Assembly (NCBI GenBank): GCA_030673845.1
Contig: JAUTCQ010000006.1
Location: 1-64,000, forward strand
Source of the DNA: Verrucomicrobiota bacterium JB022
GTDB taxonomy: Bacteria; Verrucomicrobiota; Verrucomicrobiia; Opitutales; Oceanipulchritudinaceae
DNA length: 64,000 nucleotides
Direction: 5' to 3'
Each line of letters opens with the position of its first letter. The first letter of the stretch is position 1. The position numbers and the translations under genes are program-made. The notes beneath the pieces are model-generated. The model saw only the letters and a list, made by a program, of their open reading frames with translations, had not been told where the DNA came from and did no database searches. Shown here one piece after another: positions 20,559 through 56,082 of this stretch.

Positions 20559-20569
20559 GGGGGAGAGGG

Positions 20570-20680
20570 GTGGCACGCCCTCCGGGGTGCCTTGTGTATT
20601 CGGGGCCATCCGGTGGTAGTCGGTCCGCTGCGCGGCCCTCGACCACCGGCTATCGAGCTGGCAAACCTCCGGCTTGCCAT
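20570..20680 (+). repeat. REP-like three-hairpin element, variant type
   Basis: It has the same architecture as the REP units at 34.7-35.9 kb: a GC-rich hairpin (GCACGCCC...GGGGTGC), a central stem CCGGTGGT/ACCACCGG and a third hairpin GGCAAACC-TCC-GGCTTGCC. The central stem differs in sequence from other copies (CGGGGT/ACCCCG) but still pairs. A near-identical inverted copy is at 35810-35916. It starts 12 bp after the hemL stop. Confidence 0.75.
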
Positions 20681-20799
20681 GCAGCGGAGGATGGCGGACC
20701 GCCAACGCCGCACCTATTGAGCGAAGAATTGACGGCGCTTAACCTACGCAACGGAGTATAGAGATTGGGAGATCACCCCACCACCACCGCCGCGCCGCC

Positions 20800-20910
20800 C
20801 CAAGCCGGAGGCTTGGCAGCTCTTAGCCCGGGGTTGAGGTCCACCGGACCGACACCCCGGGTTTACGGAGCTCAACATGCACCCCGGAGCGGGTGCCACC
20901 ATTGAGTCGG
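20800..20910 (-). repeat. REP-like three-hairpin element, inverted copy
   Basis: Read on the minus strand it gives GCACCC...GGGTGC, then CCCGGGGT/ACCCCGGG with inner stem GGTCC-GGT-GGACC, then CCAAGCC-TCC-GGCTTGG. With the element at 20570 it forms an inverted pair between the convergent hemL and the gene at 20929. The segment 20681-20799 between them includes CTATACTCCGT-type sequence also found beside the RAYT gene. Confidence 0.75.
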
Positions 20911-34709: not shown

Positions 34710-34744
34710 GGTGGGCGACAGCTTGTGCGGATGACGCCCGCCAG

Positions 34745-34850
34745 TGGCACCCCTCCGGGGTGCGGTTGTGTTGCGTGAGTTTCCCCGGGGTATCGGCCCT
34801 TGCGGTCCTCGACCCCGCGCTAAGAGCTGCCAAGCCTCCGGCTTGGGGAG
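34745..34850 (+). repeat. REP-like three-hairpin element upstream of the RAYT gene
   Basis: Hairpin 1 is GCACCCC-TCC-GGGGTGC, hairpin 2 is GGGGT...ACCCC around a GC-rich inner stem, and hairpin 3 is CCAAGCC-TCC-GGCTTGG. It lies 35 bp after the barrel gene stop. The tail sequence GATTGCCCTACCTC and CTCCGCTG to its right recurs after the copy at 35616. Confidence 0.85.
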
Positions 34851-34984
34851 GCGCGGCGGTGGTGTTGGAAGGCGCGGCGTGGTGTAAGAGGGGGGCGTTG
34901 GTGGTGATTGCCCTACCTCTATACTCCGCTGGATGGCTTGTTTTGTTTGCGTAGGTATGAACCCTCAGCCATACCGACTTCGGC

Positions 34985-35425
34985 ATGTCGTCGACATTTT
35001 CCTGCCTGCACCATCATATCGTATTCAGCACCAAAAATCGGGAGCCCTGGCTAAGGGAGGAAGTCCAGGAGCGCCTGTTTCACTATCTAGGCGGGACTGT
35101 GAATGGTTTAGGTGGTCAATCCGTTGTGGTCGGAGGCTTCTACGATCATGTGCACCTGTTGGTGCGGATGCGGCCGGTGGATGCCCCGGCGGCTTTTGTG
35201 CGTGAGTTGAAGAAGGCAAGCTCGCTTTGGATGAAGCCGCACGAGCCCGCCTTTAGCTGGCAGGAGGGGTATGCGATCTTTTCCACCAGCGTTTCGCATC
35301 TGGACGTGGTGGAGCTGTATATCCGCAGCCAGCATGAGCATCACCGGGTGCGGTCATTTGCGGAAGAGTTGGAAGCGCTATTGCAGCGGCATGGGATCGT
35401 GTATGATCCAGCGTATTTGGTGTAG
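34985..35425 (+). CDS. REP-associated tyrosine transposase (IS200-like Y1 HUH family)
   Basis: A 146-residue Y1 transposase. The HUH motif is DHVHLLVRM with H55 and H57. The candidate catalytic tyrosine is Y112 in VELYIRSQHEHHR. The N-terminus CLHHHIVFSTKNREPWL and WQEGYAIFSTS are typical of the solitary TnpA_REP group seen in many environmental bacteria. No tnpB or IS ends are present; instead four three-hairpin REP-like units surround it (34745, 35442, 35616, 35810). This is the layout of a domesticated RAYT that acts on REP DNA as single strands. The frame and motifs are complete, so the enzyme is probably active. Confidence 0.92.
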   Translation: MSSTFSCLHHHIVFSTKNREPWLREEVQERLFHYLGGTVNGLGGQSVVVGGFYDHVHLLVRMRPVDAPAAFVRELKKASSLWMKPHEPAFSWQEGYAIFSTSVSHLDVVELYIRSQHEHHRVRSFAEELEALLQRHGIVYDPAYLV

Positions 35426-35441
35426 CATCGCCCGTGGCTCG

Positions 35442-35542
35442 TGGCACCCCTCCGGGGTGCGGTTGTGTTGGGTGCGTTTCCCGGGGTATCGGCCCTTGCG
35501 GTCCTCAACCCCGCGCTAAGGGCTGCCAAGCCTCCGGCTTGG
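35442..35542 (+). repeat. REP-like three-hairpin element, first downstream copy
   Basis: Near-identical to the unit at 34745: GCACCCC-TCC-GGGGTGC, central CGGGGT...AACCCCG, and CCAAGCC-TCC-GGCTTGG. It starts 16 bp after the RAYT stop. Confidence 0.88.
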
Positions 35543-35615
35543 TGTGGGGCGACAGTGGTGTTTGAAGGCTCAGTTGTTGTACGAGGGTCGCGTTGGAGGT
35601 GATTGCCCGTGCTCG

Positions 35616-35716
35616 TGGCACCCCTCCAGGGTGCGGTTGTGTTGGGTGCGTCTCCCGGGGTATCGGTCCTTGCGGTCCTCAACCCCGCGCTAAGGGCTGC
35701 CAAGCCTCCGGCTTGG
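35616..35716 (+). repeat. REP-like three-hairpin element, second downstream copy
   Basis: A direct tandem copy of 35442-35542 with a spacing of 174 bp from start to start; the linkers are also similar (GGCGACAGTGGTGTTTGAAG in both). Hairpin 1 has a single mismatch (CCAGGGTGC). Confidence 0.88.
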
Positions 35717-35809
35717 TGTGGGGCGACAGTGGTGTTTGAAGGCTCGGTTGTGGTGTAAGAGGGGGGGCGTTGGCGGTGATTGCCCTACCTCGATCCTCCG
35801 CTGTATGAG

Positions 35810-35916
35810 CAAGCCGGAGGTTTGCCAGCTCGATAGCCGGTGGTCGAGGGCCGCGCAGCGGGCCGACTACCACCGGAGCGCCGTGATTACCTAAGGCACC
35901 CCGGAGGGTGTGCCAC
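35810..35916 (-). repeat. REP-like element, inverted variant copy
   Basis: On the minus strand it matches the variant unit at 20570-20680 almost base for base, including the CCGGTGGT/ACCACCGG central stem and GGCAAACC-TCC-GGCTT third hairpin. It closes the repeat array before the inositol-phosphatase gene. The whole 35426-35947 gap is this array. Confidence 0.85.
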
Positions 35917-35947
35917 AGTGGGGGAAGGGATACTCAGCGAGACGCGT

Positions 35948-53043: not shown

Positions 53044-53182
53044 CCGCCCGCCCGGCGACACGCGACCTTTTTTGTTTTCAGGCATCTTGCGCGACCCGAT
53101 CCGCCGCCGCGGACCAGGGTGGGGGAGAGATTCCTCCAAAAAGAGAGGCGGCTGGTGTTGATTCAGAAGGGTCCTGCCGCCG

Positions 53183-53290
53183 TGGCACACCCTCCGGTGT
53201 GCAGTTTAGTTGCGTGAGATTCCCGGGGTATCGGGCCTTGCGGCCCTCGACCCCGGGCTAAGTGATGGCATCCTTCCGGCACCAGCAAGC
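53183..53290 (+). repeat. REP-like three-hairpin element, solitary copy
   Basis: Hairpin 1 is GCACACC...GGTGTGC, where other copies have GCACCCC...GGGGTGC: the changed base pairs covary. The central stem is CCCGGGGT/ACCCCGGG with inner GGGCC-TTGC-GGCCC. The third hairpin is degenerate. The rest of the 53044-53603 gap (to the MFS start) holds no other gene that I can support. Confidence 0.75.
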
Positions 53291-55023: not shown

Positions 55024-56082
55024 ATGTTTACGCCCTCTAATGGGCTGGGTCCGGGTGGCCTGGCGGGATTGTTCCGTCAGGCTACCCGATCTATTTCCTT
55101 GTTTAGGTGCGCTATTGCTCTCATATTATTTCTTAACAATACCCGCCAGGCCTCTCAACGATGCCCAAATTGGCGGGTTACTCTTTTAGCCTCAAGAATA
55201 TGGTGGCAAAGCGCTTTTAAGCGCTACGATGAGCAGATTGCCATTCTCAGGGCGCGCGGGCTGCAAGTGGGAGATGTCGCGTTTGCGAAGCATATTTTGA
55301 CCCACTATAGTTACTATCGGTTGTCGGCCTATCGTTTTCCGTTTCAGGATACCAAAGATCAATTCAGGCACGGCACAACTTTTGAGGAGCTGTGGGCACT
55401 GTATGTTTTTGATCGAAAGCTACGAGCTTTGGTGGGGGAGGCCTGCAAGCATCTGGAAGTTTCGGTTCGCGCCACATGGGCCTACATCATGGGAGAATCA
55501 CACGGCCCTGACGCTTATGAGCAAGGGGCCTGTTTTCGCCACCAAAGGCGTTATCAAGCGAATCTCGATTCCTTGGACCGCTTACTAGGCCAAAGTCAGG
55601 AGCCCTTCGTCTCTCACTATCGAAACCAGCATGGCATGAATCGCCCGCCAATCTGGTGTGTGACTGAGGTCATGAGTTTTGGCTTGTTGAGCCGCTTCTA
55701 TGCAAATACAGCAGCAGATCGGGACAAGAAAGCTGTAGCGCGAATTTATGGGTTATCGATCAATGGCTTTGAATCCCTGCTGGAGCATACCGTTTACTTG
55801 CGGAACCTATCGGCGCACCACGCACGTCTCTGGAATCGCCAGTTTACGGTGACGGTGTCGCTTCCGCAAAAGCAGCCGAATGCTGTGGTCAAGAGCCTGA
55901 ACCCGCAAGAGCCCAGGCGCCTCTATAATTCCTTGGTTTTGCTTGGGCATGTGGTGCAGGTGGTCGCCCCTGAGTCCGATTGGTTGGAGAGGGTGCGCGC
56001 CCATGTTCTGTCATTGCCGGTGAAAATGCAGGCGGATATGGGGTTCCCGCGCGATTGGGAATCCAGGCCGGTTTGGCTCTGA
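55024..56082 (+). CDS. Abi_2-family abortive infection protein, 5' end uncertain
   Basis: From about 55219 the frame encodes a complete AbiD/AbiF-type Abi_2 core of 288 residues: RYDEQIAILRARGLQ, YYRLSAYRFPFQ, LWALYVFDRKLRALV, WCVTEVMSFGLLSRFY and a YLRNLSAHHARLWNR segment with the RNxxxH HEPN motif. The family causes abortive infection, probably through RNA cleavage. Codons upstream of 55219 in this frame are not like the family. An ATG at 55161 in another frame reads MPKLAGYSFSLKNMVAKRF and would join the core if one T were removed from TTTT at 55215-55218, so a 1-nt indel is suspected. GC content is lower than neighbours. Confidence 0.75.
   Translation: MFTPSNGLGPGGLAGLFRQATRSISLFRCAIALILFLNNTRQASQRCPNWRVTLLASRIWWQSAFKRYDEQIAILRARGLQVGDVAFAKHILTHYSYYRLSAYRFPFQDTKDQFRHGTTFEELWALYVFDRKLRALVGEACKHLEVSVRATWAYIMGESHGPDAYEQGACFRHQRRYQANLDSLDRLLGQSQEPFVSHYRNQHGMNRPPIWCVTEVMSFGLLSRFYANTAADRDKKAVARIYGLSINGFESLLEHTVYLRNLSAHHARLWNRQFTVTVSLPQKQPNAVVKSLNPQEPRRLYNSLVLLGHVVQVVAPESDWLERVRAHVLSLPVKMQADMGFPRDWESRPVWL

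Follow-up and report, generated by a model that had tools for sequence, protein, structure and literature searches.

The locus described here poses a double question: what kind of enzyme is encoded by its short Y1 transposase gene, and how are the structured repeats that lie around that gene related to it? The window is the whole 64,000-nucleotide stretch analysed, at the start of a contig of Verrucomicrobiota bacterium JB022. From its letters alone, a sequence-only reading had proposed a complete Y1 HUH transposase with the residues H55, H57 and Y112, identified as a RAYT and embedded among one upstream and three downstream three-hairpin repeats that would be its REP targets. We arrive at another identity for the enzyme and a modified one for the repeats: it is likely, with a probability of roughly 0.7, that the gene (tnpA) encodes an IS200-like single-stranded DNA (ssDNA) transposase of TnpA-Y1 subclass 1.2, present in a few copies per genome, and that the three-hairpin units are its putative cognate recognition elements. 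What we observed is that units accompany the gene in a canonical placement and with a conserved structure, that in three genomes they match in a genome-specific way, that gene and unit co-occur across genomes, and that in one relative the elements have discrete ends.

The tnpA product matches the Y1_Tnp family PF01797 with 72.9 bits (cut-off 23; 3.3e-20) and scores 61.7 bits with the NCBIfam IS200/IS605 model NF033573, above its curated cut-off of 55. Its motifs are DHVH at residues 54-57, WQ at 92-93 and Y112...Q116..HH119-120, and H55, H57, W92, Q93, Y112, Q116, H119 and H120 are invariant in all 16 aligned proteins, which bears out the description of a complete Y1 HUH enzyme. An AlphaFold2 model built from 16 homologues (mean pLDDT 89.4) finds as its best solved match in Foldseek the ISDra2 TnpA (2xma, E 7.6e-9), with IS608 and other IS200/IS605 TnpA enzymes also recovered and the E. 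coli RAYT 4er8 at rank 30 (E 1.5e-4). As modelled, the protein has the HUH/Y1 fold of IS200/IS605 TnpA.

The class-2 TnpA_REP proteins (RAYTs) carry a Y---NP motif, according to the sections of Quentin et al. (2018; PMC6006769) available to us. The window protein reads YIRSQHEHH, and a glutamine stands at that place in 16/16 aligned proteins, so that there is no Y---NP. The signature given in the same source for subclass 1.2 is DH[IV]H, WQ, YIKNQKEHH, with a length of 148 aa; that subclass is described there as near IS200 but not IS-like, low in copy number and found mostly in Cyanobacteria and Bacteroidetes, and Table 1 of the source lists it without a REP. The window TnpA carries the printed signature of subclass 1.2 (Y---Q--HH, IS200 relative), an assignment made by comparing its sequence with that Table 1 rather than by the published clustering or HMM. 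Among 39 proteins placed in a tree, those resembling subclass 1.2 fall with IS200 and nine class-2 proteins stand apart with support 100/100, class 2 being represented by its long type only (NH[YF]H, >300 aa, same bacterial class), with the E. coli-like and cyanobacterial subclasses left out; in that tree, the subclass-1.2-like rows are not one clade against IS200 (2 changes). A strict RAYT (class 2) identity, as first proposed, is ruled out by the glutamine in place of the NP motif, the IS200 grouping in the tree and the fold matches to ISDra2 and IS608. The earlier statement that no tnpB is present agrees with our finding that none adjoins the gene. Its neighbours code for a porin-like protein of the beta-barrel type and for an inositol monophosphatase, and a further ORF close by matches nothing in Pfam.

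The repeats have an elaborate and constant architecture. Aligned over about 108 nt, 29 copies from the same genome share the order hairpin A (TGGCACCCCTCCGGGGTGC), a variable spacer, hairpin B, CTA and hairpin C (TGGCAAGCCTCYGGCTTGC), hairpin B being a longer stem broken by an internal loop. Two covariance models were used: R1, built from own-genome unit copies, and R2, built from 37 units of 22 loci, taken from tnpA flanks within the class with a single solo half added. Among those 37 units, one side of the internal loop of B is GTC or ATC in 32, the opposite side is TCA or TCG in 33, and the four nucleotides before hairpin B, on the complementary strand, are GTAG in 18, TTAG in 14, ATAG in three, CTAG in one and another tetranucleotide in one. 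In the R2 alignment 93.4% of cells are paired, double changes number 115 where shuffles give 41.9 +- 4.2, and sliding the stem partners drops pairing to at most 47.9%. Since pairing is kept through double changes, the architecture is conserved while the stem sequences vary.

In the window, the middle hairpin pattern has four matches against 0.00 expected in shuffles, the first has three against 0.23, and the third has ten against 0.49, palindromic matches of the last being counted on both strands; these shuffle counts, together with the compensatory stem changes, rule out chance repeats. A known Rfam RNA is likewise ruled out, as the sole window match at gathering score is an abiF RNA and not the units. 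That RNA (RF03085, 55.8 bits) lies at window positions 55142-55178, where it overlaps the 5' part of an Abi_2-domain ORF taken at its longest frame (55024-56082; PF07751, 1.1e-51, domain from residue 90). By sequence, RNA and ORF together are probably a defence gene of the AbiF type and its RNA, and the unit at 53180-53288 is some 2 kb away.

Table 1. The tnpA gene and the three-hairpin units of the window
Feature	Coordinates	Strand	Detected by	Remarks
Unit 1	34742..34850	+	R1; R2 1.4e-18	Hairpins A 34746-34763, B 34785-34817, C 34830-34846
tnpA, HUH/Y1 single-strand DNA transposase, 146 aa	34985..35425	+	ORF, PF01797, NF033573, alignment, AF2, Foldseek	
Unit 2	35439..35546	+	R1; R2 2.9e-18	Begins 14 nt past the last stop-codon base, canonical downstream place
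Unit 3	35613..35720	+	R1; R2 2.5e-17	Direct copy, 97% identical to unit 2 over 144 nt
Unit 4, inverted	35805..35918	-	R1; R2 2.1e-13	Beside the inositol monophosphatase gene
Left half of inverted unit pair without tnpA	20568..20681	+	R1, R2	
Right half of the 20568 pair	20796..20901	-	R1, R2	
Single unit	53180..53288	+	R1, R2	

The arrangement around tnpA is as it had been read from the sequence: R1 and R2 place one unit upstream, two downstream in direct orientation and one downstream and inverted (Table 1). In the congeneric genome G132, a unit but no tnpA stands next to the same inositol monophosphatase gene, at the position that corresponds to unit 4, and because of this tnpA-less counterpart unit 4 may predate the gene. 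Genome-wide, the covariance-model count that the sequence-only reading had called for gives, with R1, 77 matches at E <= 0.01 and 62 at E <= 5e-10 (best 150 candidates scored), some of the 77 overlapping on opposite strands. What stands of the proposed REP targets is that these are dispersed and likely cognate repeats; the units are not canonical REPs of 20-40 nt. On either side of the second own-genome tnpA of subclass 1.2 (locus L002, G000:C3:223244-223678) lie R2 matches that are weaker and differ in their stems (L002 1395-1496 - and 1952-2055 +), and two cognate unit sets may, judging from these stems, coexist in this genome.

Whether the placement of units is a property of the gene rather than of this locus was read from a held-out set: the best 80 of 521 loci with tnpA relatives in named genomes were scanned independently, and three that share a training unit or gene were dropped, leaving 77. 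As canonical we define a minus-strand unit ending at most 250 nt before the gene or a plus-strand unit starting at most 250 nt after it, and we count R2 rows at E <= 1e-3, with one row (L085, E 0.00095) left out. A unit occupies the canonical place in 57 of the 77 loci (before the gene in 51, after it in 47, on both sides in 41), with median unit-gene distances of 18 nt before and 23 nt after, and unit density within 1 kb of tnpA is 51 times that farther out; at the other 20 loci there is no canonical R2 unit. Unit-bearing tnpA loci are labelled Verrucomicrobiota, Planctomycetota, Acidobacteriota, Sumerlaeota, Bacteroidota, Chloroflexota and Proteobacteria, the labels coming mostly from metagenome bins in which binning errors are possible. 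The restriction of the repeat to Verrucomicrobiota, implied by its first description, therefore has to be given up, since units flank the gene on contigs, mostly from metagenome bins, of Planctomycetota, Acidobacteriota, Bacteroidota and others. On a plasmid of Persicobacter (Bacteroidota) the gene has canonically placed units on both sides (E 1.4e-7 and 4.4e-7), and in Bernardetia, also of the Bacteroidota, R2 finds no unit. The plasmid collection yielded two Bacteroidota records and one haloarchaeon, and the sample held no cyanobacterial subclass-1.2 gene.

Control loci define which enzymes the units accompany. Within the same class, units flank 11 of 19 motif-confirmed subclass-1.2 loci (R2, E <= 1e-3), the remaining eight being without an R2 unit; in the control set L192-L213, the loci L192 and L213 were not confirmed as subclass 1.2, and L213 has a unit (1/2). 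At loci that are class 2 by motif, units were found at 0 of 25 (R2, E <= 0.1), nine of these loci coming from genomes with units elsewhere (four of the first 20, plus five added from unit-bearing genomes). That any TnpA-Y1 gene attracts units is ruled out by this difference between 0/25 class-2 and 11/19 subclass-1.2 loci. The IS200-type loci also have none (0 of 8, six confirmed by motif), a weak control because all eight come from one family without detected units. At L264 (G110:C13:135200-139400), in a genome that has units, a Y1 frame truncated to 112 aa, with a partial domain and unclassifiable by motif, sits between units at 1821-1921 - and 2328-2429 + in the canonical layout; going by its sequence, it is probably a tnpA in decay that has kept the units at its borders.

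Gene and unit also go together across genomes. Our sample comprised 384 genomes of one class of Verrucomicrobiota, searched for the gene at E <= 1e-10 and the unit at E <= 1e-4 with the 10 best candidates scored per genome. The gene is present in 129 and the unit in 119, with 93 genomes having both, 36 the gene only, 26 the unit only and 229 neither (odds ratio 22.8, Fisher p 4e-35), figures to be read with the fact that R2 was trained on tnpA flanks of the same class, so that the finding of units in its tnpA genomes is in part built into the model. Kinship is handled in the Fisher tests only by a repeat at genus level, at which 60 of 171 genera have both, 20 the gene only, 12 the unit only and 79 neither (odds ratio 19.8, p 6e-17). 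Genomes with the gene have between one and ten tnpA matches, mostly one to six, among the best 10 candidates scored in each. Units persist in 26 of the 255 genomes without the gene, numbering 1 to 17 in the 20 of these that were counted more deeply, and a profile search of the 26 found broken gene remnants in G096 and G220 and a weak match in G232.

Copy number follows the same trend. In samples of 20 random unit-bearing genomes per group, with the best 96 candidates scored per genome, the median is 12 unit matches with the gene (at least 96 in the richest) against two without it (up to 17; p 7e-4). The sequence-only reading had proposed to compare copy number with gene presence and had named equal abundance in relatives without the gene as the pattern that would speak against it; units are instead much commoner in genomes with the gene. 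The single-contig genome G041, of the same class, holds 17 units and no subclass-1.2 gene by profile search, possibly an orphan population after gene loss. Unit numbers differ within a genus, as R2 gives at least 149 matches in G132 and 79 in the congeneric genome studied here. Thirty-four of the former lie in one stretch of about 17 kb around a tnpA (G132:C27:1-17500), a cluster that looks like local amplification.

The sampled units away from the gene match its flanks in sequence. All 37 hand-picked solo units, drawn from three genomes (10 from the genome studied here, 13 from G132 and 14 from G161, the second own-genome tnpA being left out as a reference), are most similar to the tnpA-flanking units of their own genome. 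Of the 62 strong own-genome matches, 48 form 24 plus-minus inverted pairs; in 21 of these pairs the halves are exactly 3 nt apart, giving composites mostly of 221-225 bp, several of which, by eye, share further sequence on both outer sides. The composites of G161 have the geometry of the gene flanks without the gene (C'B'A', 13-14 nt, ABC); the A ends point inward there, whereas in our genome (G000) the C ends do. At their termini the G161 composites carry, in inverted orientation, the motif GAATGTCGATTCAG with C[CT]TA after it, and nine of 12 elements are 263-266 bp long from end to end. Among 30 motif matches, of which two plainly belong to another repeat, identity between pairs of copies is 0.81-1.0 within the terminal motif, drops across the nine bases that follow and lies at 0.23-0.34 from the tenth base outward. 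The motif is absent, with up to three substitutions allowed, from the one G161 tnpA locus read out of three. Three composites (L241, L246, L252) abut one and the same other repeat (TGGGCTGTCAC...GTAAAGACACA), a pattern that suggests they were inserted, in nested fashion, into a second repeat family. Sharp ends, near-constant length and the abutted repeat are the marks of a discrete dispersed element in G161.

Comparison of six own-genome sites with G132, over aligned blocks 68-87% identical, gave no clean empty site. Synteny between the two genomes breaks at three of the six (the window tnpA locus at 34742-35918, C17:251726 and C17:265560), the G132 contig ends in a unit at the C6:144036 site, nothing aligned in G132 at C6:156664, and at the window 20568 site the unit is present in both genomes. 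When the flanks of 28 own-genome loci were compared with those of 32 G132 loci, four of the 28 found a match. Some units hold the same position in two species and hence not all are recent.

How such a system might work can be sketched by analogy. The parts of PMC8266576 on which we draw describe how the Y1 enzymes of IS608 and ISDra2, as well as TnpA_REP, bind ssDNA hairpins and how a tetranucleotide 5' of the hairpin helps choose the cut. We infer that TnpA likewise binds and cleaves its units, is guided by the NTAG and mobilises the elements. A TnpA dimer would bind the folded hairpins of two inverted units exposed in single-stranded (lagging) DNA, and Y112 would cut near the hairpins, with the NTAG at the base of hairpin B, on the complementary strand, as a plausible guide. 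Unit pairs, or the stretch between or around them, might then be moved or copied in trans, as has been proposed for REPINs with RAYTs and for PATEs with IS605-type TnpA. Inverted pairing is seen both around the gene, commonly as C'B'A'-tnpA-ABC, and, gene-less, at other sites. The low copy number of the gene and the divergence of its two own-genome copies suggest a mostly resident enzyme serving many small elements.

Other accounts of the same observations have to be weighed against this one. In the strongest of them, to which we give a minor but appreciable chance, the system is an ordinary IS200/IS605-type insertion sequence with complex ends, in which C'B'A'-tnpA-ABC is the autonomous element, the solo pairs are internal-deletion (PATE-like) derivatives, and the gene is selfish rather than domesticated. 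The inverted units on both sides of the gene at 41 of the 77 held-out loci would be such ends, the sharp-ended gene-less pairs of the same geometry dispersed in G161 would be such derivatives, and a protein that groups with IS200 and exceeds the IS200 cut-off of NF033573 would be at home in such an element. Yet the genome studied here has just two tnpA copies, 55% identical to each other, the range elsewhere is the low one given above among the best 10 candidates scored, and the terminal motif of the G161 elements is missing from the one G161 tnpA locus read.

The units could instead be an older, independent repeat family beside which tnpA inserts or between which it was trapped, an account that we hold to be improbable. 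It would account for the tnpA-less counterpart of unit 4 in G132 and the units of the 26 genomes, among 255, without the gene; it sits poorly with the regular spacing to the start and the end of the gene, the genome-specific matching of 37/37 units in three genomes, the lack of units at class-2 loci and the strong co-occurrence at genus level. Least credible is that the three hairpins form a structured RNA, a leader or terminator of the gene, and not a DNA target: conserved stems with compensatory change and a short distance to the gene are what an RNA would show, but the units stand on both sides of the gene in opposite orientation, occur as dispersed pairs without tnpA, and match no Rfam family at gathering score in the window.

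A broader proposal, for which we see even odds, is that this is a widespread ssDNA transposition system bridging IS200/IS605 and RAYT/REP, in which a subclass-1.2 TnpA with three-hairpin ends and lineage-specific stems moves paired-unit elements of ~220-310 bp in trans in Verrucomicrobiota, Planctomycetota, Acidobacteriota, Bacteroidota and others. If true, an orphan enzyme subclass would gain a substrate, and REP-like systems would have arisen independently of the class-2 RAYTs. If the units are substrates, REP-like systems would have originated a second time, within the IS200 branch of the enzymes, and some of the intergenic hairpins of PVC genomes would have a source. The modular unit, with its compensatory stem changes, offers a way to study the co-diversification of a transposase and its DNA targets. 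Our literature search, which covered titles and the beginnings of abstracts, few subscription papers and no preprints, found no three-hairpin unit and no repeat partner of subclass 1.2.

Set beside known systems, the locus shares features with several. Like the RAYT/REP/BIME/REPIN systems (REPtrons), it combines a low-copy Y1 enzyme flanked by its own dispersed palindromes with inverted pairs and genome-specific matching. The NTAG next to hairpin B in the complementary strand, which is GTAG in 18 of 37 units, may be compared with the 5' GT[AG]G tag of REPs. Unlike a RAYT, the protein belongs to class 1 and is without Y---NP, and unlike the REP, a single hairpin of 20-40 nt, the unit has three hairpins in about 108 nt; the unit-richest genomes in our counts hold from tens to about 150 matches, as lower bounds. 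It differs from common IS200/IS605 elements in having no tnpB at the window locus, tnpB being common but not obligatory in them, and no near-identical copies in its own genome. With subclass 1.2 as characterised in the available parts of PMC6006769, it has in common DH[IV]H, WQ, Y---Q--HH, a length of about 148 aa (146 here) and low copy number; the subclass appears there without a REP and mostly in Cyanobacteria and Bacteroidetes, whereas here it has three-hairpin units and occurs in 129 of 384 verrucomicrobial genomes and in other phyla. The GTAG repeats of Opitutus terrae, REPs reported from a verrucomicrobial genome and compared here by their description in the portions of De Nocera et al. 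(2013; PMC3733652) available to us, are single tagged stem-loops, some with GTGG/GTAG feet and some forming dimers with 1-2 bp spacing, and may overlap with hairpin B. A parallel for the gene-less elements lies in the PATEs and IS605-type transposons of Haloquadratum as presented in the sections of PMC3119063 at hand: PATEs too lack a transposase and have palindromes near their ends that correspond to the palindromes flanking an IS200/IS605-type gene, and no target duplication is evident by eye. The present elements differ from them by three hairpins per end in fixed order and by their inverted-pair architecture, and the PATEs are described as lacking terminal inverted repeats, whereas the G161 elements have the same motif inverted at both ends; nevertheless, with their discrete ends and a length too short to code for a transposase, the G161 elements are PATE-like.
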